Source of the DNA: Streptomyces katrae | GTDB lineage: Bacteria > Actinomycetota > Actinomycetes > Streptomycetales > Streptomycetaceae | DNA length: 64,000 bases | Direction: 5' to 3' | NCBI RefSeq assembly: GCF_002028425.1 | Contig: NZ_CP020042.1 | Location: 6,547,560-6,611,559 of the forward strand | Shown here: one piece after another, positions 23,167-63,043 of the stretch | Layout of the letters: every line of letters begins with the position of its first letter | Position numbering within the stretch: the first letter of the stretch is position 1 | The notes under the pieces: model-generated | Told to the model about the DNA's origin: nothing | What the model saw: the letters and a program-made list of their open reading frames with translations, nothing else | The model's database searches: none | Made by a program: the position numbers and the translations under genes

Positions 23167-23792
23167 CCAGCCTGCTCGTGATCGCCAAAGCGCCCGTGCC
23201 CGGCCGGGTCAAGACCCGGCTCACCCCGCCGTTCACCCCCCGGCAGGCGGCGGACCTGGCCGAGGCCGCGCTCGCCGACACCCTGGCGGCCGCGGCGGCC
23301 ACCCCGGCCGGCCGGCACGTCCTGGTCCTGGACGGCGCCCCGGGGCCCTGGCTGCCGCCCGGCTTCGAGGTCGTGCCACAGGGCGGCGGGGGCCTCGACG
23401 AACGGCTCGCGGCCGCGTTCGCCGGCTGCGCCGGGCCGGCCCTGCTGATCGGCATGGACACCCCGCAGGTCACCCCGGAACTCCTGGCGCCCGCGCTGGC
23501 CTTCGACGCGTACGACGCCTGGTTCGGCCCGGCCGCCGACGGCGGGTTCTGGGCCCTGGGCCTGGCGGCGCCGGACCCGGCCCTGCTGCTCGGCGTCCCC
23601 ATGTCCGTGCCCGAGACCGGGGCGGTGCAGTACCAGCGGCTGCGTGCGGCCGGCCTGCGCACCGGGCTGCTGCCGCGGCTGCGGGACGTGGACACCGCCG
23701 CCGACGCCGCCGAGGTCGCCGCCCTGGCACCGGCCGGCCGGTTCGCCGCGCTCCACCGGCGGCTCAGCGCCCGGACGGCGGTGGCGCGATGA
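23163..23792 (+). CDS. TIGR04282/DUF2064 family glycosyltransferase-like protein
   Basis: A 209-residue protein. [23 protein letters not shown] near the N-terminus, [15 protein letters not shown] (about 98) and the [13 protein letters not shown] block are diagnostic of the DUF2064/TIGR04282 family. It belongs to the nucleotidyl/glycosyl transferase superfamily and is commonly adjacent to a GT2 partner, as here. Its GTG overlaps the upstream TGA. The reaction is unproven. Confidence 0.85.
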
Positions 23793-24508
23793 CCGCCCCC
23801 ACCACCTCCCGGCCGCCCGCCACACCGGGCCGGCAATGGCGGGCCGACCCCTACAGCCTGGCCCTGCGCACCGGGCAGGGCCCCCTCTTCCTGCGGCGGA
23901 CGGACGGCTGGCTGCTGCCCCTGGACGTCGAACGCTGGTGCGCCGGGGCCGACGCCGCCGACGAGAGCGTGCTGGCCCGCTGCCGCGGAAGCGTCCTCGA
24001 CATCGGCTGCGGCCCCGGCCGGCTCGTCGTGGCGCTGGCCGAACGGGGCCGCCGCGCCCTCGGCATCGACGTGACCCCGGCCGCCGTGACCCGGACCGTG
24101 GGCCGCGGCGGAACGGCCCTGTGCCGCTCCGTCTTCGAGCCCCTGCCCGGCGAACGCCGCTGGGACACCGCCCTGCTGATCGACGGCAACATCGGCATCG
24201 GCGGAGATCCCGCCGCCCTCCTGCGGCGCACCGCCGGCCTGATCGGCCCCGGTGGCCGCCTGGTCGCCGAGGCCGCGCCCGTCGACGTCGACGAGCGGTG
24301 CGAGGTGCGCCTCGACGACGGCCGCGGCACGCTCGGCGCCCCCTTCCCGTGGGCCCGGGTCGGCCGCCGGGCCCTGCTGAGCCACGCCGAGGCCACCGGC
24401 TGGCGCACTGCCGGCAGCTGGACGGTGGCCGGCCGGCACTTCGCCGAACTCGTCCCCGGGACACCGCGCGGCCCCGAGGCCGGCACCGCCCTGCGGGCCG
24501 CGCCGTGA
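23789..24508 (+). CDS. Class I SAM-dependent methyltransferase
   Basis: A 239-residue methyltransferase. SAM-binding motif I is [19 protein letters not shown] (about residues 67-85) and motif [35 protein letters not shown] is motif-III-like, with GRLVAEAAP following. The acceptor is unknown, but its place between a glycosyltransferase pair and a membrane GT suggests a glycoconjugate or lipid substrate. ATGA overlap with the upstream gene. Confidence 0.85.
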
Positions 24509-25932
24509 CCCGGCCGGCCGCCGGTCCCGTACGGGCCGCCGCGACCGCGACCGCCGCCACCGCCGTCCTCGTCACCGCCCTGGTCGCCGTGCTCGTCCTC
24601 ACCGTGCGCAAGGACGGCTACTTCGCCGACCCGGCCGGCCTGTCCTGGCTGTACGCCGCCTGCTGGGCCCTGTTCGCGGCGGCGGTGTGGTCCCTGCGCC
24701 GGGTACCCGCCCGGCACGCCGCAGCCCTCGTCCTCGCCGGCGGTGTCGCCGTCGCCCTGACGGGACTGGCCGCCCCACCCCGCACCAGCACCGACTCGTA
24801 CCGGTACGCCTGGGACGGCCGCGTGCAGGCGGCGGGCATCTCCCCCTACGACCACGCCCCGGCCGACCCCGCCCTCCTGCCGTACCGCGACGGATGGCTC
24901 TTCCCGACGGGGAAGGCGTGTGGCAGGCCGGACCTGGCCGCCGTGTCCGAGGGCGTCTGCACCCGCATCAACCGCCCCCGCGTCCACACCATCTACCCTC
25001 CGGCCGGCGAGCTGTACTTCCTCCTCGTCCACGCCCTCTCGCCCGACGGAGTCCGCCACAAGGCCTTCCAGGTCGGCGGCGCCGTACTGGCCCTCGCCAC
25101 CACGCTGTCGCTGCTGCGCATCCTCCGCCGGCGCGGTGACCCCAGGACCGCGGCCTACTGGGCCTGGTGCCCCGCCGTCGCCGTCGAAGCCGTCAACAAC
25201 GCCCACGCGGACGTCCTCGCCGTCCTGCTGTCCGTCCTCGCCCTGGGCCTGACGGTGCGCCACCGGGCCTGGGGCGGCGCCCTGCTCGGCCTGGCCACCG
25301 CGGCCAAACTCCTGCCCGCCGTCCTGCTCCCCGGCGCCCTGTCGGGCGTACGCCGCGCCCGTGACGCCGCCGCCGTCCTGCTCCCCGCCGCCGCCGTCCT
25401 CGTCGCCCTCTACCTGCCGTACGTCCTGCTCTCCCACTCCTCCGTCCTCGGCTACCTCGCCGGGTACGCCGACGAGGAGGGCTACCAGGACGCCTCCGCC
25501 GGCGACCGCTACGCCCTCCTGCGCCTGCTCCTCCCCGACTCCTGGGCCGTGCCCGCCGTCGTCGCGGGCATGCTCGCCGTCAGCCTGTACGTGATCCGGC
25601 GGGGCGACCCGCAGCGCCCGTGGAGCGGTGCCCTCCTGGTCAGCGGGACCGCGTTCCTCCTGACCACGCCCGGCTACTCCTGGTACGCCCTCCTCCTGAT
25701 CGCCCTGGTGGCGCTCGACGGCCGCTGGGAATGGCTCGGCGTCGCGGTCGCGGGCGCGGCCGCCTACCTGACGGGCCGGGTCGTCCCGCACGCCGGCACG
25801 GCCGCCTACGCCGCCGCCGCGCTGGCCGTCGCGTGCGGCTGGGCGGCGCGCCGGCGAGCCCGCGGCGGGCGCGCCGCCCCGCACCGTACGGCCGGACCGG
25901 ACACGCTCCCCTCGGCGGGGAGGGCCACGTGA
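24505..25932 (+). CDS. Polytopic GT-C/GT87-like glycosyltransferase
   Basis: A 475-residue membrane protein with about ten to twelve hydrophobic segments. The first extracytoplasmic loop has [25 protein letters not shown], in which the Asp-Arg pair and 'G.nPY' motif are typical of polyprenyl-phosphate-dependent GT-C mannosyltransferases (GT87-like). Similarly [12 protein letters not shown] and [12 protein letters not shown] recur in this group. It presumably transfers a sugar from a lipid carrier outside the membrane. GTG 24505 overlaps the methyltransferase stop. Confidence 0.8.
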
Positions 25933-54545: not shown

Positions 54546-54788
54546 CTACCGCCCGCGGCCGTCGAGCTCCGCGGCCGACCGGGCCAGCCCCTCGGCCGCC
54601 CGGGTGCAGCGCAGCGCGAGCTCGTCGACCCGGGCGCGGAAGAGGTCGGCCTGCGGCCCCTTCCAGTCCAGGCCCGCGCAGGCCCCGCGCAGCCGCTCCG
54701 CCCGCTCCCGCAGCGCCGCGGCGTGGGAGCGCAGCCCCTCGGCGGCACCGCGCGGCCCGGCCTGCGCCCCGTACGGCCGCCCGCTCAC
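54546..54788 (-). CDS. WXG100-like small helical protein, last gene of the alpha-dioxygenase operon
   Basis: An 80-residue protein predicted as two helices joined by a turn holding WKG (Trp42-Gly44), followed by PQADLFRARVDEL; the W-x-G, with a Phe eight residues later, is the arrangement of WXG100/ESAT-6 proteins. Those are secreted by type VII systems or act as partners and chaperones. Its GTG overlaps the stop of the alpha-dioxygenase-like gene (GTGA), so it is translated with it. No type VII machinery is in the window. A role as a binding partner of the enzyme is speculative. Confidence 0.65.
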   Translation of the reverse strand: MSGRPYGAQAGPRGAAEGLRSHAAALRERAERLRGACAGLDWKGPQADLFRARVDELALRCTRAAEGLARSAAELDGRGR

Positions 54789-56704
54789 CCCTGCCCCTTC
54801 CACGGGGCGAACGCGTTGGACACGCCGTCCAGGTGCGGCGCCAGCTCGGGGTGGTGGCGCAGCAGCACCGTCACCATCGAGTTCTCGTCGACCCAGCGCA
54901 GCCCCTCGGCGGTGTACACCTCCGGCCGGTAGTCGGTGGTGAAGAACCGGTCGCTCTTGAGCCGGCGGGTGGCCATCAGCGCGAAGATCCTGAACAGGGT
55001 GTCGCTGAACCCGAAGCCCGCCGGCCGCGGTTCGGCGAGGTTGCCGACCAGCGTGTCCACGCGGTCGAGGCGGCCGTCGTAGACCTCCCGCAGCAGCGGG
55101 GTGTCGGCCGGATGGCCGCCGGTCAGCTCCTCGAACGAGGTGACCGGGCGCTTGCGCAGCATCTGCCGGTAGGCGTTGTAGCGGGGGATGCCGCGCTCGC
55201 GGTCCCGCAGGACGTCCACCGTCCCGAGGTCGATGCGCTCGCCGGACAGCCGGGTGAAGTTCCGCAGCGCGTCCGGGTGGTTGTGCAGCACCAGGGCGCC
55301 GGGGTGCTGCACGCCGAAGCTGTACAGCAGGTCGCTCGTGCCGAACTCGTCCACCGCCGTGCGGGTGGTGGCGCCCTGCATGTCGTCGAAGCCGACGACC
55401 TTGCGGACCGTGCCGCCCCGGTGTTCGCGGACGGTGATCTCGTCGGGGATCAGCGGGTGCAGCCGGTACGCCGACACGAACTCCTCCGTCATGGAGAACG
55501 GCGCCGCGTGGTGGTCGGTGGCGGAGCCCAGGGTCCCGCTCAGCACCTCGCCGCCGATCCGCCCGAAGGTCCTCGTCACCCAACGGGGCAGCAGGCCGTA
55601 CCAGTTGGAGCGCATGGCGTGGTGCAGCACCGGGTGGTCGAGGATGGCAGGGGTCCACTCCACCGTGTGGATCTTCGCCATCAGGGCGGTGTTGACCAGC
55701 CGCGCGGTGTGGAAGAGCCGTTCGTCGTCCCAGGTGGGGTGGTGGGAGCGGATCAGATCGCAGATCGCGTTGTGCTCCTTCGCGAACAGCGTGTGCAGCA
55801 GCGACAGGCCGGTCCAGTAGTCGCTGTTCATCCCGGTCGCGTCGAGGCAGTCCATCCCGGGCCGCGGGTCCCGGGGCAGCCGGCCGTCCTCCAGGACCAG
55901 CCGGCCCTGCTCGCCGGTGCGCAGGGAGCGGCAGCGCGCCTCGTCCGAACCGTAGATCTGCGAGCCGTCCCACCAGTGGGTGACGGTGTTCTCGTACGTC
56001 GGCGGGGCGCCGGGGGTGGTGTGCGCGACGGGGTCGGGGCGGGTGCGGTTGACCCGCATCGGGCAGGTGCCGCCCCGCTGCGCCCAGTCGTCGTCGGCGG
56101 CGAGCGGGACGGTGAAGGGCTCGGCCTCCTCGTTGTCCCCGTGGTTGGCCCAGCCGTGGTTCTGGAACTGGATCCAGGCGGCGGCCAGCAGGTTGAGCGT
56201 GGGCGCCGGGACGAAGCCCCGCCGGGCCAGCAGCTCCCGGCTGACCTCGCGGGGGCTGGGCGTCATCAGGGCCTCGTCCTCGTCCGGACGGGCCAGCTCC
56301 AGCGGGGAGTTGCGGTCCAGCCGGGTGCCCGCCCGGCCCATGTCCACGTCGAACGGATCGTAGCCCGAGCCGTCGTACGAGCGGTGCGGCGCGAGGTGGG
56401 GGGTGGGGCGGCGGTCGCGCTCGCCGCCCGCGCCGAAGGTGTCGTGCAGGTTGAGGCGGCGCAGGTCCTCGCGGATCACGGCGAGGTTCATCAGGCCCAG
56501 GGCGTGCGGCAGTTCGTACCACTCGTGGGTGCGGTTGACCCGGGCGAAGACCGCCGACTCCAGCCGCTCCAGGAGGCCGGGCGGGCCGTACGGACGGGGG
56601 GCCGCGGGCGGCGGCGTGCCGGGGCCGGACCGCCCGGCCTGGCCGGGCAGCGGCCCGGCGGCGTCGGGGGCCGCCTGCGGGGTGGTGTCGGTGGTGTCGG
56701 TCAT
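54785..56704 (-). CDS. Fatty-acid alpha-dioxygenase-like haem peroxidase
   Basis: A 639-residue protein of the animal haem peroxidase superfamily that resembles plant alpha-dioxygenase (DOX1) throughout, in length as well. Shared-looking blocks include DMGRAGTRLDRN (about 121), LLAAAWIQFQNHGW with distal His183, RLVNTALMAKIHTVEWTPAI (about 335-354), NWYGLL, FSMTEEFVSAYRLHPLIP with the radical Tyr413 and proximal haem His416, RDRERGIPRYN, and SDRFFTTDY. DOX1 oxygenates fatty acids at C2 to 2-hydroperoxides. The residue after the distal His is Gly instead of Asp. No signal peptide. Downstream of the lipase gene, nine bases apart. Confidence 0.85.
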   Translation of the reverse strand: MTDTTDTTPQAAPDAAGPLPGQAGRSGPGTPPPAAPRPYGPPGLLERLESAVFARVNRTHEWYELPHALGLMNLAVIREDLRRLNLHDTFGAGGERDRRPTPHLAPHRSYDGSGYDPFDVDMGRAGTRLDRNSPLELARPDEDEALMTPSPREVSRELLARRGFVPAPTLNLLAAAWIQFQNHGWANHGDNEEAEPFTVPLAADDDWAQRGGTCPMRVNRTRPDPVAHTTPGAPPTYENTVTHWWDGSQIYGSDEARCRSLRTGEQGRLVLEDGRLPRDPRPGMDCLDATGMNSDYWTGLSLLHTLFAKEHNAICDLIRSHHPTWDDERLFHTARLVNTALMAKIHTVEWTPAILDHPVLHHAMRSNWYGLLPRWVTRTFGRIGGEVLSGTLGSATDHHAAPFSMTEEFVSAYRLHPLIPDEITVREHRGGTVRKVVGFDDMQGATTRTAVDEFGTSDLLYSFGVQHPGALVLHNHPDALRNFTRLSGERIDLGTVDVLRDRERGIPRYNAYRQMLRKRPVTSFEELTGGHPADTPLLREVYDGRLDRVDTLVGNLAEPRPAGFGFSDTLFRIFALMATRRLKSDRFFTTDYRPEVYTAEGLRWVDENSMVTVLLRHHPELAPHLDGVSNAFAPWKGQG

Positions 56705-56713
56705 ACGGGGTCC

Positions 56714-58090
56714 TCAGCGGTCGTGGAGGGTGAACAGGTGTGTGCCGGTGACCCGGCCGCGGAAGGCGGCGAGTGCGGAGTCGACGCGGGTGCGGGCGTG
56801 GGGGACGTCGTGCTCCAGGTTGTGCGCGTACCGCTCGGCGGCGTGGCACAGCGGGAACGCGTGGGTGTCGTCCTTCCAGGTGAACTCGGTGAACTCGGCG
56901 GGCAGTTTGTAGGCCGACACGGGAGAGCGGCCCTCCAGGCTCGGCACGATGTCGTGCTCGTTGACGAGCGAGAACACCCGGGTACGCGGATCCGCGGCCC
57001 TCTTGTGGTCGACGGGCGACCCGATCGCGACCACGTGCGTGACCGTGTACAGGGCGTTGAAGTCCCGGCTCGACGCCAGGTTCATGGCGGTGAGCCCGCC
57101 CTGGCTGTGCCCGACCAGCGCCAGCTCCGACCCGGAGGGCACCAGCCGGTGCAGGGCCCGGCGCACGGCGCGGGTGTAGGCGGTGTCGGCGGAGCCCATC
57201 GCGTTGCAGCTGCCCACCAGGTCCTGGGGGCTCTCCTGGTTGAACCCCTTTCCCATCCCGGCGAGTTGCACCACGAACCGGCGCGTCCCGTCCGGGCCGG
57301 ACACCTGCTGGACGAGGAGCAGCCCGCGGGTGCCGAGATGGCCGATGTTGCGGACGTAGCCGACGATGGTGCCCGAGCTGTCGATCCGCTCCAGCAGCTC
57401 CGCCGACGGGGTGTGGGGTTCGGCGCGACCCCTGCCCCGGTCGAGGAAGGACCAGAGCGCGGCGGCGGTGCCGAGCATGAAGTCGGAGGTCAGGGGCCGG
57501 TTGGTGGCGATCTGCCAGCCGGCGGTGTCGTTGAAGGGGTTCTCGTCGGTCAGCGCGTTCCAGGCCATGATGTCCGCGAAGGACGGCGCCAGCAGCGCCA
57601 GCGCGTACTCGGCCCCCTTCTCGGTCAGCAGCCCCTTGAACACCCGGACGGCCTCGGCCTGCCGGTCCTCGTCGATGGCGCGCAGCACCCGCGAGGTGGT
57701 GGGGTTGGCCAGCAGCTCCGGGTGGCGCACGGCGGCCGCCCGGATCCGCGCCTTGAGCCCGGCCACGGCGAGGCTGACGGCCAGGCTCTCCCGGCTGGTG
57801 AGCACCCCGGCCAGCCAGAGCGCCCCGGCGAGCGGGGTGCGCCCGTGCGGGGCCCAGCCGAAGCCCCGCGGGTCCAGCAGGGTCCGCAGCAGGCCGCGCT
57901 GGGCGGCCCGGGCCCGCCGCGGTCCGGCCGCGGCCAGCGGCAGCCGGGGGCCGAGGGCGAGCCGGGAGGCGTAGCGCGCGGCCTCACGCACGGCCTCGGC
58001 CGCCCCGGCCAGCTCGCGGCAGACGTGGTGCAGGGAGTCGACGTCCGGCTCGGTGACGGCCGCGGCGGCCTCGGGCACGGCTTCGGGCAC
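56714..58090 (-). CDS. Class 3-type lipase/alpha-beta hydrolase of the alpha-dioxygenase operon
   Basis: A 458-residue protein. The N-terminal half (about 1-230) is helical with a hydrophobic patch (TPLAGALWLAGVLTS, ESLAVSLAVAGL) that could touch membrane. The lipase domain follows: ELALVGHSQGGLTAMNLA gives the nucleophile Ser329, LVNEHDIVPSLEG the likely Asp, and DTHAFPLCHAAERYAH the His. It has no signal peptide. It would release fatty acids from an internal lipid. GTG 58090 behind GAGGAG is preferred to the long upstream frame. Neighbours: a P450 upstream (43 bases) and the dioxygenase downstream. Confidence 0.78.
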   Translation of the reverse strand: MPEAVPEAAAAVTEPDVDSLHHVCRELAGAAEAVREAARYASRLALGPRLPLAAAGPRRARAAQRGLLRTLLDPRGFGWAPHGRTPLAGALWLAGVLTSRESLAVSLAVAGLKARIRAAAVRHPELLANPTTSRVLRAIDEDRQAEAVRVFKGLLTEKGAEYALALLAPSFADIMAWNALTDENPFNDTAGWQIATNRPLTSDFMLGTAAALWSFLDRGRGRAEPHTPSAELLERIDSSGTIVGYVRNIGHLGTRGLLLVQQVSGPDGTRRFVVQLAGMGKGFNQESPQDLVGSCNAMGSADTAYTRAVRRALHRLVPSGSELALVGHSQGGLTAMNLASSRDFNALYTVTHVVAIGSPVDHKRAADPRTRVFSLVNEHDIVPSLEGRSPVSAYKLPAEFTEFTWKDDTHAFPLCHAAERYAHNLEHDVPHARTRVDSALAAFRGRVTGTHLFTLHDR

Positions 58091-58133
58091 GGGGTGCTCC
58101 TCTTCGGGGCAGACGGGACTTTGACGACAGGCC

Positions 58134-59486
58134 CTACGGGCGGCCGAGGCGGAGCCGGATGCCGGCCGTGTCGACGATGCCCGGCAGCGGACGGCCGGTG
58201 TCGAGGACCGGGCGGGCTCCGGTGAGCCGGTTGCCGCGCAGCACCTCGGCGCAGACCAGCGAGGACAGCAGCAGCCCGAGCCGGTCGCCGGGGCAGCGGC
58301 CGGCACCCTGGCTGAACGGGGCCGTCCGGGGGTCCAGGTCGGCGCCCGGGACCAGCCAGCGGCCCGGTGCGAACAGGTGCCCGCCCGGCACCCGGCCGGG
58401 GTCGCGCTGGTGGAAGCCGATGGGGACGAGGACGGTGGTCCCCGCCGGGTGGCGCACCCCGCGCCACTCGGTTTCGGCGCGGGTGACCCGTACCAGGTCG
58501 GGCACGACCGGGTACAGCCGCAGCGACTCCTGCACGCAGGCCCGCAGCCGGGGCAGTCCGGGGGTGCCCGCCGCGATCTCCGCGCGCACCTCGTCCTGTT
58601 CGGCGGGGTGGGCGGCCAGCAGGAGCAGGGTGCGGATGACGACCGGCGCGCAGACCTCGATGGCCAGCAGCCAGTGGTGGGTCTGTCCGAGCGGGTCGGT
58701 GCCCTCGGGGGAGGGGGCGCTCAGGGCGCGGGCGGCCAGGGTGTGCTCCGGCGCGCCGTCCGCGTACCGGGCGATCCGTTCCTCCGCCCGCGCGTACAGG
58801 GCCCGGTTGGCCCCGGGCCGGCTCTTGCCCATCCAGTTGGCCTGGTCGCGCAACGTGGTGAGCCAGCCCGCGAGTTCCGTGTCGTCCGCCGCCCGGTCGC
58901 CGAGGACGATCCGGCGGGAGATCCGGGCCAGGGCGGTGCCCAGGCGGGGGAAGCCGAGGACGGTGGCGGCGGTGAGCGGCCGGCACTCCTCGGCGACGAT
59001 CCGCTGGTACTCGGCGCAGTCGGGGTGGATGTCCTGACCGGCGGCCAGGGCACGGTCGTTGACCTCGCGGCGGTCCTCGCGCAGCTGCCCGTGCGAGCAG
59101 ATGACGCCGGTCGGCTCGAACACGGAGAGGCTGTCGAGCTTGTCCCGGGCGTCCATGGCGAGGACGTCCATGGGTTCGGCGAAGAACCGTGCGATGTCCT
59201 CCTCGTCGAAGAGGACGAGCATCTCGCCGGAGAGGGCGCGCACCAGGACCGGCGCCCCGCCGTGCCGGGCCCGCATCGCCCGCAGCGTGGCGTTCGACCA
59301 GGCGGGCTGGTTCAGCCGGGAGTACAGGGCCACCACCCCGAACCGGGGGCTGGCGACGCCGCGTACGAAGACCGGCAGGGTGTGGGTGGCCATGAAGCGG
59401 ACTGTCTCCGACAGGCCCGCCCGGGCCGGCGGCCGCGGCGGTGTCCCGGGGCGGGCGGCCTCGCGGGTCTCGGTGGAGTGGGTCAT
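58134..59486 (-). CDS. Cytochrome P450 with non-canonical I helix
   Basis: A 450-residue P450. ExxR lies in QESLRLYPVVP, the 'PERF' region in FAPGRWL, and the haem loop is FSQGAGRCPGDRLG with Cys398. The I-helix region reads LLAIEVCAPVVIRTLLLLAA instead of (A/G)GxD/E-T-T/S, so the acid-alcohol pair that activates O2 is missing. Such loss is known in peroxygenases (CYP152) and in hydroperoxide-rearranging P450s (CYP74, CYP5, CYP8), which act on fatty-acid peroxides. A peroxide substrate fits the adjacent dioxygenase. ATG 59486 overlaps the upstream stop (ATGA). No ferredoxin gene is in this operon. Confidence 0.85.
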   Translation of the reverse strand: MTHSTETREAARPGTPPRPPARAGLSETVRFMATHTLPVFVRGVASPRFGVVALYSRLNQPAWSNATLRAMRARHGGAPVLVRALSGEMLVLFDEEDIARFFAEPMDVLAMDARDKLDSLSVFEPTGVICSHGQLREDRREVNDRALAAGQDIHPDCAEYQRIVAEECRPLTAATVLGFPRLGTALARISRRIVLGDRAADDTELAGWLTTLRDQANWMGKSRPGANRALYARAEERIARYADGAPEHTLAARALSAPSPEGTDPLGQTHHWLLAIEVCAPVVIRTLLLLAAHPAEQDEVRAEIAAGTPGLPRLRACVQESLRLYPVVPDLVRVTRAETEWRGVRHPAGTTVLVPIGFHQRDPGRVPGGHLFAPGRWLVPGADLDPRTAPFSQGAGRCPGDRLGLLLSSLVCAEVLRGNRLTGARPVLDTGRPLPGIVDTAGIRLRLGRP

Positions 59487-60895
59487 GCGCGGACCACCTT
59501 GCCGGGGTTGAGGAGGTTCTTCGGGTCGAACAGCCGCTTGAGGCCGCGCTGGAGCTCCAGGGAGACGGGGCCCAGCTCGCGCTCCAGCCACTCCCGCTTG
59601 AGGGTGCCGATGCCGTGCTCCCCGGTGGTGGTGCCGCCCAGGGCGAGCCCGGCCGCCATGATCTCGTCGTAGGCGGTCCGGGCGCGGTCGAGTTCGCCGG
59701 GGTCGCAGGGGTCGAAGACGACCGTGGGGTGCAGGTTGCCGTCCCCGGCGTGGCCGAGGGTGAACACCCGCAGCCGGTGGCGGTCGGCGATGCCCTCGAT
59801 CAGGCCGATCAGCGCGGGGAGTTCGCTGCGGGGGACCGCCACGTCCTCGATGAAGGCGGTGAGTCCGCCGCCCCGGGAGGCCATGTACGCGCCGATCGCC
59901 GGGGTGACCAGGCGGCGCGCCTCGATGATCTCCCGGGCCTCCTCGGGGGTGGCCGAGGTGGCGACCTGCTCGGACCCGGCCTCCTTGCACAGGAGTTCCA
60001 TGGCGGTCAGGTCCGCGCCCGGGTCGGTGCCGTCGCTCTCCACGATCAGGGTGGCGGCGCTGCCGGCGCGCATCAGCGGGTGGGTGCCGAGGTCCACGAC
60101 GGCCTGGGTGGTGGCCCGGTCGAGGAGTTCGAGGGCGGACGGGGTGTGCCCGGCGGCGGTGATCGCGGCGACGGCGTCCCCGGCGGCGGTCAGGGTGGGG
60201 AACCGTGCCAGCAGGGACAGCGCCGGCGGCCGGGCGGGCCGCAGGGCGAGGGTGGCGCCGACGACCACCGCGAGGGTGCCCTCCGAGCCGACGACCAGCC
60301 GGGTCAGGTCGTACCCGGCGACGCCCTTGGCGGTGTCCCGGCCGGTGCGCAGCCGCCGCCCGTCGGGGAGTACGAGGTCCAGCCCGAGGACGTAGTCGGC
60401 CGTGACCCCGTACTTGACGCAGCAGATGCCGCCGGCGCCGGTGGCGATGTTCCCGCCGATGGTGCACGTCTCCCAGGAGGCCGGGTCCGGCGGGTACGTC
60501 AGCCCGTGCTCGGCGACGGCCTCGGCGAGCCGGCGCGTGGTGACCCCGGGCTCGCAGCGCACCAGGCGGTTGGCGGGGTCCACCGACAGGATCCGGTCCA
60601 TGGCGGTGGTGGACAGGACCACGCAGCCGTCGACGGCGTTGGCGGCGCCCGCCAGTCCGGTGCGGGCTCCCTGCGGGACCACAGGGACGTCCAGCGCGTA
60701 GGCGGTCCGCATGATGTGCTCGACCTGCTCGGCGGTGCGGGGGACGGCGACCACGGCGGGGGTCCCGTACGCGGAGAAGGGCGCGGTGTCCCGGGAGTGG
60801 GCGGCGAGGTCCGCCGGACCGGTGAGCAGGGCCTCGGCGGGGAGCTCCTGGCGGAGCCTGGCGAGCAGGAGGGGGGTGTCGGTGGTGACGGACAT
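59483..60895 (-). CDS. GlcD-type FAD-linked 2-hydroxyacid dehydrogenase
   Basis: A 470-residue flavoprotein. FAD_binding_4 (about 40-180): VVPQGARTGLAGAANAV, GGNIATGAGGICCVKYGVT, VLGLDLVLPDG. FAD-oxidase C domain: FTLGHAGDGNLHPTVVFD (His residues of the active site near 380) and GEHGIGTLKREWL. Family members oxidise D-2-hydroxy acids such as glycolate, lactate, 2-hydroxyglutarate and mandelate. It lies 52 bases after the ThDP decarboxylase gene, suggesting consecutive reactions: 2-hydroxy acid to 2-oxo acid, then decarboxylation. Confidence 0.88.
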   Translation of the reverse strand: MSVTTDTPLLLARLRQELPAEALLTGPADLAAHSRDTAPFSAYGTPAVVAVPRTAEQVEHIMRTAYALDVPVVPQGARTGLAGAANAVDGCVVLSTTAMDRILSVDPANRLVRCEPGVTTRRLAEAVAEHGLTYPPDPASWETCTIGGNIATGAGGICCVKYGVTADYVLGLDLVLPDGRRLRTGRDTAKGVAGYDLTRLVVGSEGTLAVVVGATLALRPARPPALSLLARFPTLTAAGDAVAAITAAGHTPSALELLDRATTQAVVDLGTHPLMRAGSAATLIVESDGTDPGADLTAMELLCKEAGSEQVATSATPEEAREIIEARRLVTPAIGAYMASRGGGLTAFIEDVAVPRSELPALIGLIEGIADRHRLRVFTLGHAGDGNLHPTVVFDPCDPGELDRARTAYDEIMAAGLALGGTTTGEHGIGTLKREWLERELGPVSLELQRGLKRLFDPKNLLNPGKVVRA

Positions 60896-60947
60896 GCCGG
60901 CCTTCCGGGAGGGTGCGGCGGAACGGGGGTGCGGGGGAGCGGAGGGG

Positions 60948-62558
60948 CTACAGGGTGGGGAGCTCGGTGGTGACGGGCACGTCGATGAGGACCGGGCCGT
61001 CCTGCTGGAGGGCCGACTCCCGGACCAGCTTGGCCAGTTCGCCGCAGCCGGACGCCCGGTGCGCCCGCACCCCGTAGCCGGTGGCGACGGCCGTGACGTC
61101 CAGGCCGGGGATGTCGAGCCCGGGCGCGCCCTGGGCCCGTTCCACCTGGGCGAACCACTGCAGGATGGCGTAGCGCTGGTTGCTCAGCACGACGAAGGTC
61201 ACGGGCACCTTGTAGGCGGCGGCGGTCCACAGGGCCTGGACGGCGTAGTGGGTGGACCCGTCGCCGATGACGCAGACCACCGGCCTCCGCGGGGCGCCGA
61301 GCTGGGCCCCGACGGCTGCGGCCAGGCCGAAGCCGAGGCCGCCGCCCGCGGTGAAGAGGAACGCACCGGGGGTGTCGATCCGGGTGGCGTCGTGGAACTG
61401 CCCCAGGTTGGAGGGGGATTCGTTGATCCAGAGGGTGTCCGCGGGGGCACCCTGGGCGATGGCCGTCATCGCGGCGAGCGGGGTCAGTGCCCCGTCGACC
61501 TCCTCGAAGGACTCGGCCCGTTCGGTGCGCGGGGCGGCCGGCGGTGCCTCGCGGTGGGGCAGGGCGGCGGTCAAGGCCCGTACGGTCAGGGTGAGATCGG
61601 CGACCAGGGCGTCTCCCACGGGGGCGCGGGCGGCCTCCTCCGCGTCCCGGGTGAGCTGGACCAGCTCCGCGCCCCGGGGCAGGTAGTCGCCGGGGACGTG
61701 GGGGTAGTAGCAGAACACCGGGGCGCCGATCACCAGCACCAGGTCGTGGCCCTCCAGGCAGCGGGAGAGCGGCCCGATGGCCGGGGGCAGCATCCCCCGG
61801 TACTGCGGATGGGACTTGGGGAAGGCGATCCGGCCCTCGGTGGGTGCCGACCAGACCGGCAGACCGGTGCGCTCGGCCAGTTCCACGACCGCCTCCCAGG
61901 CCCCCGAGGCGTCCACGTCGTTACCGGCGACCAGGACGGCGCTGCGCGCCCGTGAGATCCGTGCGGCCAGCCGCTGCACCACCTCGGCGGCGGGGGCGGC
62001 GGCGTGCGTCACGGTCCGCGCCGCGGTCCGCTGCGCGGCCCGGTCCTCGTCATCGTCGAGCAGTACGTCGAAGTCGTCCATCGGGAGCGAGACGAAGACC
62101 GGCCCCTGCGGCGGGGTTTCGGCGATCTGCGCGGCGCGCGCCAGCGCGGGCCCGATGTCCGCCGGGCGCGGCGGCTCGTAGGCCCACTTCACGGCGGGCT
62201 GGGGCAGGAGGGTGGACTGGGGGTTGGCCAGCAGGGCCTCCATGGTGAGCATGGCGCGCACCTGCTGGCCCGCGGTGACCACCATCGGGGTCCGGTTGGC
62301 CCGGGCGTTGAGGATCGCGCCCATGGCGTTGCCCGTGCCCGGTCCGGTGTGCAGGTTGACCAGGCCGGTGGTGCCCGAGGCGAGGGCGAAGCCGTCGGCC
62401 ATGCCGACCACGACGGCCTCCTGGAGCCCGAGGACGTAGCGGAAGTCCTCCGGGAACTGCTTGAGCATGGGGAGTTCGGTGGAACCGGGGTTCCCGAACA
62501 CCGTGGTCATCCCGCGGGTTCGCAGGACGTCCAGGACCGACTCACGGACCGTGCGCAT
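60948..62558 (-). CDS. mdlC: Benzoylformate decarboxylase-like ThDP enzyme
   Basis: A 536-residue ThDP enzyme that follows benzoylformate decarboxylase of Pseudomonas putida almost residue for residue in number: GNPGSTELP with Ser26, LQEA with Glu47, VNLHTGPGTGNAMG with His70. The ThDP motif is VIGDGSTHYAVQALW. The second catalytic His of that enzyme, in FRYHQ, is Tyr285 here (VFCYYPHVPG), with His287 two residues on. It should decarboxylate 2-oxo acids to aldehydes; the changed site suggests a different substrate, perhaps aliphatic. First gene of the operon; a 28 bp dyad lies 41 bases upstream. Confidence 0.85.
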   Translation of the reverse strand: MRTVRESVLDVLRTRGMTTVFGNPGSTELPMLKQFPEDFRYVLGLQEAVVVGMADGFALASGTTGLVNLHTGPGTGNAMGAILNARANRTPMVVTAGQQVRAMLTMEALLANPQSTLLPQPAVKWAYEPPRPADIGPALARAAQIAETPPQGPVFVSLPMDDFDVLLDDDEDRAAQRTAARTVTHAAAPAAEVVQRLAARISRARSAVLVAGNDVDASGAWEAVVELAERTGLPVWSAPTEGRIAFPKSHPQYRGMLPPAIGPLSRCLEGHDLVLVIGAPVFCYYPHVPGDYLPRGAELVQLTRDAEEAARAPVGDALVADLTLTVRALTAALPHREAPPAAPRTERAESFEEVDGALTPLAAMTAIAQGAPADTLWINESPSNLGQFHDATRIDTPGAFLFTAGGGLGFGLAAAVGAQLGAPRRPVVCVIGDGSTHYAVQALWTAAAYKVPVTFVVLSNQRYAILQWFAQVERAQGAPGLDIPGLDVTAVATGYGVRAHRASGCGELAKLVRESALQQDGPVLIDVPVTTELPTL

Positions 62559-63043
62559 GGGAGGTTCCTTCGCTGGCGGGCGGCTTCGCGACAGTGCGTG
62601 ATCAATGCATCACATTGCGTTGATCAAGGCAAACCCGTGATCCGTTCGGGTCGGGAGACGCGGTTCCCTTGCCGGGCGTCCGTCGTGCGTGCTATCGGCC
62701 GTCCGGCCGGGGCAGTGCGCCGTATTGCGATAAACCGCATTAGTGCCTGCCGTGCGCATTCGTCTCCCGGCCTCGGGGCGCACCGGCGATAAGAAGTCAA
62801 AGACGGCCCGGGAATGGACTGAGGCGCCCAGGTGGCACCGGGGATGGAAATGCCCGTGCTAAAGCGCATCAGTCCAGGTCAACGCTGCCGCATCGGCCCC
62901 GGGTGCGGGTGTCTTTCGACGCCCTCGGACACGGGTTCCCCGGCCACCGGGATTACGGCCGCATTGACGCGACCGGCGCTTGCGTACAGCCTGGGGCACC
63001 GCCCTCCGGCGCCGGAGCCGGAACTCCCACGAAGGCGGCGACG
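62559..63043. other. 485 bp gene-free divergent control region
   Basis: It lies between the divergent mdlC-like operon and the sugar-binding protein gene. Apart from the dyad at 62599-62626 it has relatively AT-rich segments around 62600-62640 and 62725-62800 (for example TATTGCGATAAACCGCATTA), likely promoters. No open frame with a ribosome-binding site was found. Confidence 0.5.
62599..62626. promoter_or_regulatory. Nested dyad upstream of the mdlC-like operon
   Basis: TGATCAA (62599-62605) is repeated inverted as TTGATCA (62620-62626); inside it CAATG-CATCA-CATTG forms a smaller dyad. It is AT-rich and 41-68 bases upstream of the start codon, the usual place for an operator. No regulator gene is adjacent. 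Confidence 0.55.

Follow-up and report, generated by a model that had tools for sequence, protein, structure and literature searches.

The window analysed here, a 64,000-nucleotide stretch of the 8.06 Mb Streptomyces katrae genome (G000:C1:6547560-6611559), carries on its minus strand, from position 62558 down to 54546, six genes that form one tight unit. They are transcribed in the order benzoylformate decarboxylase-like thiamine diphosphate (ThDP) enzyme (BFD), GlcD-type flavin adenine dinucleotide (FAD) enzyme (GlcD), cytochrome P450, α/β-hydrolase (LIP), fatty-acid α-dioxygenase (DOX) and a small WXG-like protein (Table 1). The intergenic gaps measure, in that order, 52, -4, 43, 9 and -4 bases, the GlcD/P450 junction being an ATGA overlap and the DOX/WXG-like junction a GTGA overlap, and the overlapping six-gene set described in the initial annotation is thus borne out by both coordinates and family searches. 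The LIP start, a GTG behind GAAGAGGAG, was assigned by us. Among the records fetched, S. katrae ISP-5550 comes closest, with 93% identity in DOX and 95% in BFD. A role in anti-phage defence was considered and dismissed, as PADLOC gave no match for any of the six proteins.

Table 1. Genes of the six-gene unit and the element upstream of it (window coordinates).
Feature	Position	Strand	Details
BFD-like ThDP enzyme, proposed 2-oxo fatty acid decarboxylase	60948..62558	-	536 aa; NF005485 642 bits (cut-off 493); PDB 6qsi E 1.8e-158; Tyr285/Pro382/Ile465
GlcD-type FAD-linked 2-hydroxy-acid dehydrogenase/oxidase	59483..60895	-	470 aa; FAD_binding_4 + FAD-oxidase_C; PDB 9qgz glycolate oxidase E 1.3e-100
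Cytochrome P450 with altered I-helix, proposed hydroperoxide consumer	58134..59486	-	450 aa; PF00067 70 bits; ExxR, Cys398
LIP, α/β-hydrolase	56714..58090	-	458 aa; helical N-terminal part; catalytic domain ~219-446; Ser329/Asp380/His416
DOX, fatty-acid α-dioxygenase	54785..56704	-	639 aa; PF03098 347 bits; PDB 4kvj/4hhr; His183, Tyr413, His416, Arg581
Small WXG-like helical protein	54546..54788	-	80 aa; sub-threshold T7SS_signal; relatives in 18/79 loci
Imperfect palindrome TTGATCAACGCAATGTGATGCATTGATCA, candidate operator/promoter element	62599..62627	-	5' of BFD; half sites recur in Streptomyces upstream regions

DOX exceeds the Pfam cut-off for An_peroxidase and aligns with the plant α-dioxygenase structures 4kvj (chain A, E = 5.1e-112 across residues 57-636) and 4hhr (E = 2e-104); in NCBIfam, neither it nor LIP nor the small protein matches a model. 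Its catalytic set, whose roles and numbering we take to be those of the α-dioxygenases, comprises the distal His183, Tyr413, the proximal His416 and the carboxylate Arg581. Across the alignment the distal His is kept in 81 of 81 rows, the Tyr and the proximal His in all 80 rows that reach them, the Arg in all 79 reaching rows and a Thr in 79 of 81; PDB chain 4kvl, compared with 4kvj, carries a Phe exactly at the position matching the catalytic Tyr413. Judged by its sequence and catalytic residues, DOX is a fatty-acid α-dioxygenase, and the earlier call of a plant-DOX1-like enzyme stands. Enzymes of this type yield (R)-2-hydroperoxides and additionally (R)-2-hydroxy acids, and the hydroperoxide spontaneously loses CO2 to give an aldehyde one carbon shorter, C(n-1) (PMC9305512; here and below, papers are cited for the parts of their text available to us).

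The gene set recurs well beyond the window. An exact peptide-pattern scan of genome contigs with patterns from this one DOX returned 79 DOX loci (loci and genomes carry our labels L and G), which therefore lean toward relatives of the window protein; gene calls in the fetched loci are heuristic, several loci stop at contig ends (L028, L036, L057 and others), and locus counts are not independent events, since many Streptomyces rows are near kin (L122/L023 and L123/L009 at zero branch length). With families assigned by tblastn with the window proteins (E <= 1e-5 in these loci, 1e-4 in the further Streptomyces loci), P450 is found at 50 of the 79 loci, LIP at 38, GlcD at 31, BFD at 30 and the small protein at 18. 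BFD and GlcD together adjoin DOX in 30 loci, and BFD, GlcD, P450 and LIP are all present in 28. Partial sets consist of BFD, GlcD and P450 (two loci, L009 and L013), GlcD, P450 and LIP (one, L011, at a contig end), P450 and LIP (six), P450 only (13) and LIP only (three, L028, L036 and L057, on short contigs or with cut ends). None of the partners occurs in the remaining 26, which include 12 cyanobacterial loci (L051-L056, L058-L063) as well as Bacteroidota, Nitrosomonas and some Actinomycetota; in 26 loci without the P450, a profile search added one distant match (L071, 22 bits). P450-linked DOX loci come from Actinomycetota and one Planctomycetota metagenome-assembled genome. The full set appears in four gene orders, spread over Streptomyces, Streptosporangiaceae and Longispora: BFD-GlcD-P450-LIP-DOX in Streptomyces; DOX-BFD-GlcD-P450-LIP in Nonomuraea soli (L044); opposite-strand GlcD and BFD between P450 and DOX/LIP in Rhizohabitans and Sinosporangium (L029, L032, L033); and minus-strand P450, GlcD and BFD between LIP and DOX in Longispora (L038). 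Nothing argues more strongly for one shared function than a gene content that survives re-ordering. The gene set is real and conserved across genera, and the search of other genomes that the initial annotation had suggested thus left its proposal unrefuted.

Surveying 150 Streptomyces genomes, we found PF03098 matches in 43 at E <= 0.001 (42 over the cut-off) and BFD matches in 46 at E <= 1e-100 (27 over the cut-off), the two lying less than 5 kb apart in six (G000, G018, G054, G087, G106, G150). In the five of these other than the window's genome (L122, L098, L123, L097, L124), BFD, GlcD, P450 and DOX are always present and LIP is present in four, L123 being the exception; G076 (L095) has P450-LIP-DOX. 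Tblastn found the cluster P450, GlcD or LIP in none of 24 other Streptomyces DOX loci (L082-L094, L096, L099-L101, L127-L133), where profiles, which give cluster members 477-620 bits, detected only distant P450s of at most 70 bits, in L085 and L088. As controls on the BFD side we used 22 unlinked BFDs, that is, over-cut-off BFDs outside the cluster (the places of 21 genomes, G108 and G049 counting twice each) rather than those of all 46 genomes. Their loci (L102-L121, L125, L126) contain DOX, P450 or LIP in no case by tblastn, distant P450s of at most 40 bits in four by profile (L103, L107, L110, L119), and GlcD in one, weakly (L111, 26% identity). Mapped onto a quick DOX tree of 71 rows (41 P450-linked, 28 unlinked, two unlabelled; no bootstrap), which omits 17 rows (near-copies, truncated rows and the window's own copy) and includes six added unlinked Streptomyces rows, the P450-linked label requires three changes, whereas shuffled labels need 22 on average. 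Actinobacterial P450-linked rows fall into a single group (SH-aLRT 94, not starred), which also contains the unlinked L031, and the P450-linked planctomycete L077 falls outside.

We hold with moderate confidence that the unit encodes a dedicated actinobacterial α-oxidation pathway for free fatty acids. LIP would release a fatty acid, into which DOX, going by its family and residues, would insert O2 at C2 to form the (R)-2-hydroperoxy acid; the P450 would then use this 2-hydroperoxide as oxidant to leave the 2-hydroxy acid, possibly placing the second oxygen on the chain. Such interception would spare the hydroperoxide from spontaneous decarboxylation and supply the 2-hydroxy acid to GlcD, which would oxidise the (R)-, that is D-2-hydroxy acid to the 2-oxo acid, and the BFD-like enzyme would decarboxylate the latter to the C(n-1) aldehyde, completing the shortening without peroxide. 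GlcD-type enzymes accept D-, or R-, 2-hydroxy acids. The stereochemistry is compatible, in that the (R) products of α-dioxygenases (PMC9305512) match this preference. The same route had been sketched in the initial annotation; it is the best reading and is now partly supported, by co-localisation in a conserved set, by the families and their catalytic residues, by the identity of DOX and by the weakening of a mandelate-like alternative, the substrates, the order of the steps, the P450 reaction and an action of LIP on cellular lipids being the parts that we infer.

That alternative, which the initial annotation had ranked first among the competing explanations, is the catabolism of aromatic 2-hydroxy acids, with DOX and P450 as unrelated neighbours. 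BFD exceeds the Pfam cut-offs for the N, M and C TPP_enzyme domains and passes the NCBIfam benzoylformate decarboxylase model, with 6qsi as its best PDB match, and Ser26, Glu47 and His70 are kept in 31 of 31 cluster rows (positions in what we take to be the P. putida BFD numbering). The mandelate pathway (mandelate dehydrogenase plus benzoylformate decarboxylase) likewise shares with the cluster the BFD family and the conversion of a 2-hydroxy acid via a 2-oxo acid to an aldehyde, whereas the cluster has a GlcD-type FAD enzyme, an altered BFD pocket and DOX, P450 and LIP. In all 31 cluster rows the pocket carries Tyr at 281, Pro at 377, Ile (30 rows) or Val (one) at 460 and Leu at 461; the window protein, with Tyr285, Pro382 and Ile465 at the sites of 281, 377 and 460, departs from the benzoylformate-type His281/Thr377/Ala460 seen in 6qsi and six unlinked Streptomyces BFDs. 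Of the 21 unlinked BFDs that can be scored (L126 is incomplete and L106 has a gap at 281), none combines Tyr, Pro and Ile/Val; six have His/Thr/Ala/Leu, four pair Tyr with Thr and Ile/Val, and the rest carry other sets. This comparison concerns the benzoylformate-type pocket and not the family, as other members passing NF005485 also deviate. The PDB entry ranked next after 6qsi is 4mpp, which we take to be an engineered form of the P. putida enzyme; at the three sites occupied by His, Thr and Ala in 6qsi it carries Tyr, Pro and Ile. In the BFD tree, 34 cluster rows lie on one side of a branch with support 100/98, opposite the 22 unlinked BFDs.

A single BFD clade with an invariant pocket, together with GlcD at only one of 22 unlinked BFDs when BFD and GlcD lie beside 30 of 79 DOX genes, argues against a mandelate cassette, as does the persistence of the gene set through rearrangement. 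A caution on the pocket argument comes from BFD itself, where H281F cuts kcat just ~5-fold and substitutions of H281 are tolerated (PMC6028569); given this tolerance, the cluster BFD may also act on benzoylformate. We have nevertheless set the mandelate cassette aside as the principal explanation and regard it as highly improbable. Comparably improbable is a ThDP enzyme working as a carboligase, which would couple aldehydes to acyloins in place of the decarboxylation or following it. Such coupling is as a rule a side activity, and no cluster feature points to an acyloin, although P. putida BFD does form chiral 2-hydroxy ketones (PMC2976732). GlcD, for its part, exceeds the Pfam cut-offs for both of its domains, has a glycolate oxidase as PDB match and stays under both NCBIfam GlcD cut-offs (392.6 against 567.9 bits and 293.3 against 897 bits).

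The P450 exceeds the Pfam p450 cut-off over its C-terminal part only, and its AlphaFold2 model (predicted local distance difference test, 92) has CYP184A1 (7wzm) as best Foldseek match; by both profile and Foldseek the nearest solved relative is CYP184A1, which has also been solved with oleic acid. The window protein keeps ExxR (Glu320, Arg323) and the haem ligand Cys398, and across the 49 rows that can be counted (L041, matched in two frames, and L047, at a contig end, are omitted) the first ExxR position is Glu in 38 and Asp in 11, with Arg and Cys in every one. The I-helix departs from the typical, though not universal, acid-Thr pair: the window has Glu277-Val278, the helix is one residue shorter in 42 of 51 rows than in the other nine, and 37 of those 42 have no acid-Thr pair. 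D-T occurs in 14 of the 51 rows, and AxxDT in nine (L039, L043, L045-L050, L077), all from the 13 P450-only loci, of which the other four (L034, L037, L041, L078) have the shortened helix. A shortened I-helix without the acid-Thr pair would imply a relaxed need for O2 activation and hence hydroperoxide use, so that the sequence suggests a P450 that consumes hydroperoxide rather than O2.

Set against this is an ordinary O2- and ferredoxin-dependent monooxygenase that would hydroxylate the chain elsewhere, leaving α-oxidation to DOX, GlcD and BFD alone. The kinship to CYP184A1 and the retention of AxxDT in nine rows would fit such an enzyme, as would the fact that Streptomyces supply ferredoxins in trans; a motif scan on the heuristic gene calls found no ferredoxin-like small open reading frame (ORF) near the cluster P450s. 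The short helix lacking the pair in 37 of 51 rows and the tight linkage of the P450 to the one hydroperoxide-making enzyme speak against it, and we judge it quite unlikely. The same I-helix deviation in most cluster forms can also be read in favour of an oxylipin synthase, in which the P450 would isomerise the 2-hydroperoxide by intramolecular hydroxylation, of the diol type as in fungal linoleate diol synthases, and GlcD and BFD would trim the product to an oxygenated C(n-1) aldehyde for signalling or defence. Of all the linkages, the DOX-P450 pair is the most widespread, at 50 of 79 loci, and it recalls the fungal DOX-CYP fusions (PMC13049297). DOX and P450 are, however, separate ORFs in all 50 loci, and this version is in our view unlikely. 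The one long frame, in L039, proved by coordinates to be the P450's own, and a DOX-P450 fusion was discarded. CYP152 peroxygenases carry Arg-Pro in the I-helix. The dipeptide is absent from the I-helix stretch of all 51 rows, in an alignment holding no CYP152 sequence, and membership in that family was rejected; by name, no CYP152 or CYP74 chain was noticed among the best 60 of 505 profile matches or the best 50 in each of two further match lists, an observation that in itself excludes nothing.

Substrate supply in the α-oxidation scheme would fall to LIP. Its α/β-hydrolase matches are all sub-threshold (Abhydrolase_6, 23.9 against 26.3 bits; Lipase_3, 21.4 against 22), and a sequence-profile search of the PDB gave 0 matches; the protein nonetheless presents a Ser-Asp-His triad in an α/β-hydrolase fold. 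Across 38 loci the Ser is kept in 34, the Asp in 38 and the His in 35, the nucleophile being replaced by Gly in L025, L027, L028 and L030. Three of these (L025, L027, L030) have P450 and DOX without BFD and GlcD, and L028 is a short contig; counter to a simple link between loss of the Ser and loss of BFD and GlcD, L035, L040 and L064 are without both and keep the Ser. Hydrolases near DOX in other loci fit a substrate-supplying role: a DUF900 protein follows DOX-P450 in the planctomycete L077, an opposite-strand α/β-hydrolase adjoins DOX in L034, and L132 contains a weak, sub-threshold patatin match.

The small protein has sub-threshold Pfam matches only (T7SS_signal, 14.4 against 27 bits; PPE, 13.1 against 26) and none to WXG100; a W-K-G motif is present in the window and absent from the small proteins of L032, L033 and L044, and further loci hold other small ORFs at the same place. 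Tblastn detects neither LIP nor the WXG-like protein in L009 and L013, where BFD, GlcD, P450 and DOX are kept. In L140 (7456-9854) and L141 (7172-9679), a related P450 (52% identity) is followed by one ORF that joins the LIP N-terminal part (residues 1-224 and 10-221, respectively) to the WXG-like protein; no LIP catalytic part, DOX, BFD or GlcD could be located within the 18 kb of these loci, which read as a collapsed relative of the operon. L142 has a related P450 without LIP or WXG matches. Joint loss in one case and fusion in the other suggest that LIP and the WXG-like protein are paired, and the small protein would accordingly be tied to LIP and not to the redox steps.

Both half sites of the palindrome upstream of BFD recur in four of 36 upstream regions (the window, L003, L004 and L098). 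Its downstream half, TGATCA, occurs in 18 of the 36, all from Streptomyces, and in none of five loci of other genera. A conserved neighbouring regulator was sought and rejected, since the scanned flanks vary, with MarR and glyoxalase in L009, SPW in L019 and L021, LamB/YcsF and CT_A_B in L025, and none named in L004 and L037.

Other DOX genes keep different company. The second α-dioxygenase of this genome (L002:247-3108; G000:C1, DOX part 23387-24913) is a 953-residue fusion protein that begins with a catalase-related haem domain (Catalase 43 bits, An_peroxidase 322 bits), the best solved relative of the N-terminal part being 3e4w. A catalase-related domain, ~65-81% identical, lies directly 5' of DOX in nine further Streptomyces loci (L083-L088, L094, L096, L100), and four of the ten loci with this catalase-DOX fusion (L082, L083, L086, L094) also have, close to it, a ThDP enzyme distantly related to BFD (21-35% identity, 71-102 bits). 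The Streptomyces loci L091, L127, L131 and L132 combine a 467-483-residue ORF (with a Dyp-type peroxidase match in L132), a catalase-like ORF, a 128-137-residue ORF and DOX, three of the four also having an ORF of 970-1001 residues, the source of the patatin match in L132. GMC oxidoreductases adjoin Streptomyces DOX genes without P450 or catalase domain in L128 (9918-11711) and L129 (6528-8453). In Actinorhabdospora (L031:8757-10013), an aldehyde dehydrogenase overlaps the DOX start, as plant-type α-oxidation predicts, with no P450 match.

The cluster resembles plant α-oxidation (4kvj, 4hhr) in the DOX protein, its catalytic residues and the expected (R)-2-hydroperoxide; plant DOX acts alone or with aldehyde dehydrogenase, whereas the cluster DOX sits with P450, GlcD, BFD and LIP. 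Coral AOS-LOX fusions of a catalase-related and an oxygenase part likewise provide an oxygenase with a haem enzyme for its hydroperoxide, and they differ from this cluster. Fungal DOX-CYP fusions (LDS, AOS, EAS; PMC13049297) share a dioxygenase of the haem-peroxidase fold and a P450 that could use its hydroperoxide; here, by contrast, the genes are separate, C2 oxygenation is expected, and GlcD, BFD and LIP are added. The cyanobacterial CalDOX and LepDOX are also bacterial α-dioxygenases, described in a paper whose tree already includes actinobacterial sequences (PMC8720084); its main text uses none of the terms Streptomyces, P450, operon and gene cluster, and neither tblastn nor profile found a cluster-type P450 in the fetched cyanobacterial DOX loci. 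Among the titles and opening lines of abstracts listed by searches of the open-licence PubMed Central literature we found no description of this cluster. The available text of PMC9305512 contains no Streptomyces, P450 or cluster, that of PMC11719350 mentions α-dioxygenase once, about plants, and PMC6100412 and PMC5816047 mention the plant enzyme.

More tentatively, the cluster may represent an actinobacterial cascade that makes oxylipins from free fatty acids. An α-dioxygenase and a dedicated hydroperoxide-using P450 would be its core, a functional counterpart of the DOX-CYP pairs of fungi and the COX-TXS pairs of animals; where the full cluster is present, the product would pass on through a D-2-hydroxy-acid oxidase and a benzoylformate decarboxylase turned to a new use, ending as a chain-shortened oxygenated aldehyde with a role in signalling or defence. 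The cluster gives a genomic context to bacterial α-dioxygenases, which the cited papers, in their available parts, treat as biocatalysts, and ties a P450 family to a hydroperoxide-forming enzyme. It probably carries out with several enzymes a reaction otherwise known chiefly from plant enzymes acting singly, and in its light some of the Streptomyces proteins passing as benzoylformate decarboxylase or glycolate oxidase may act on fatty acids.

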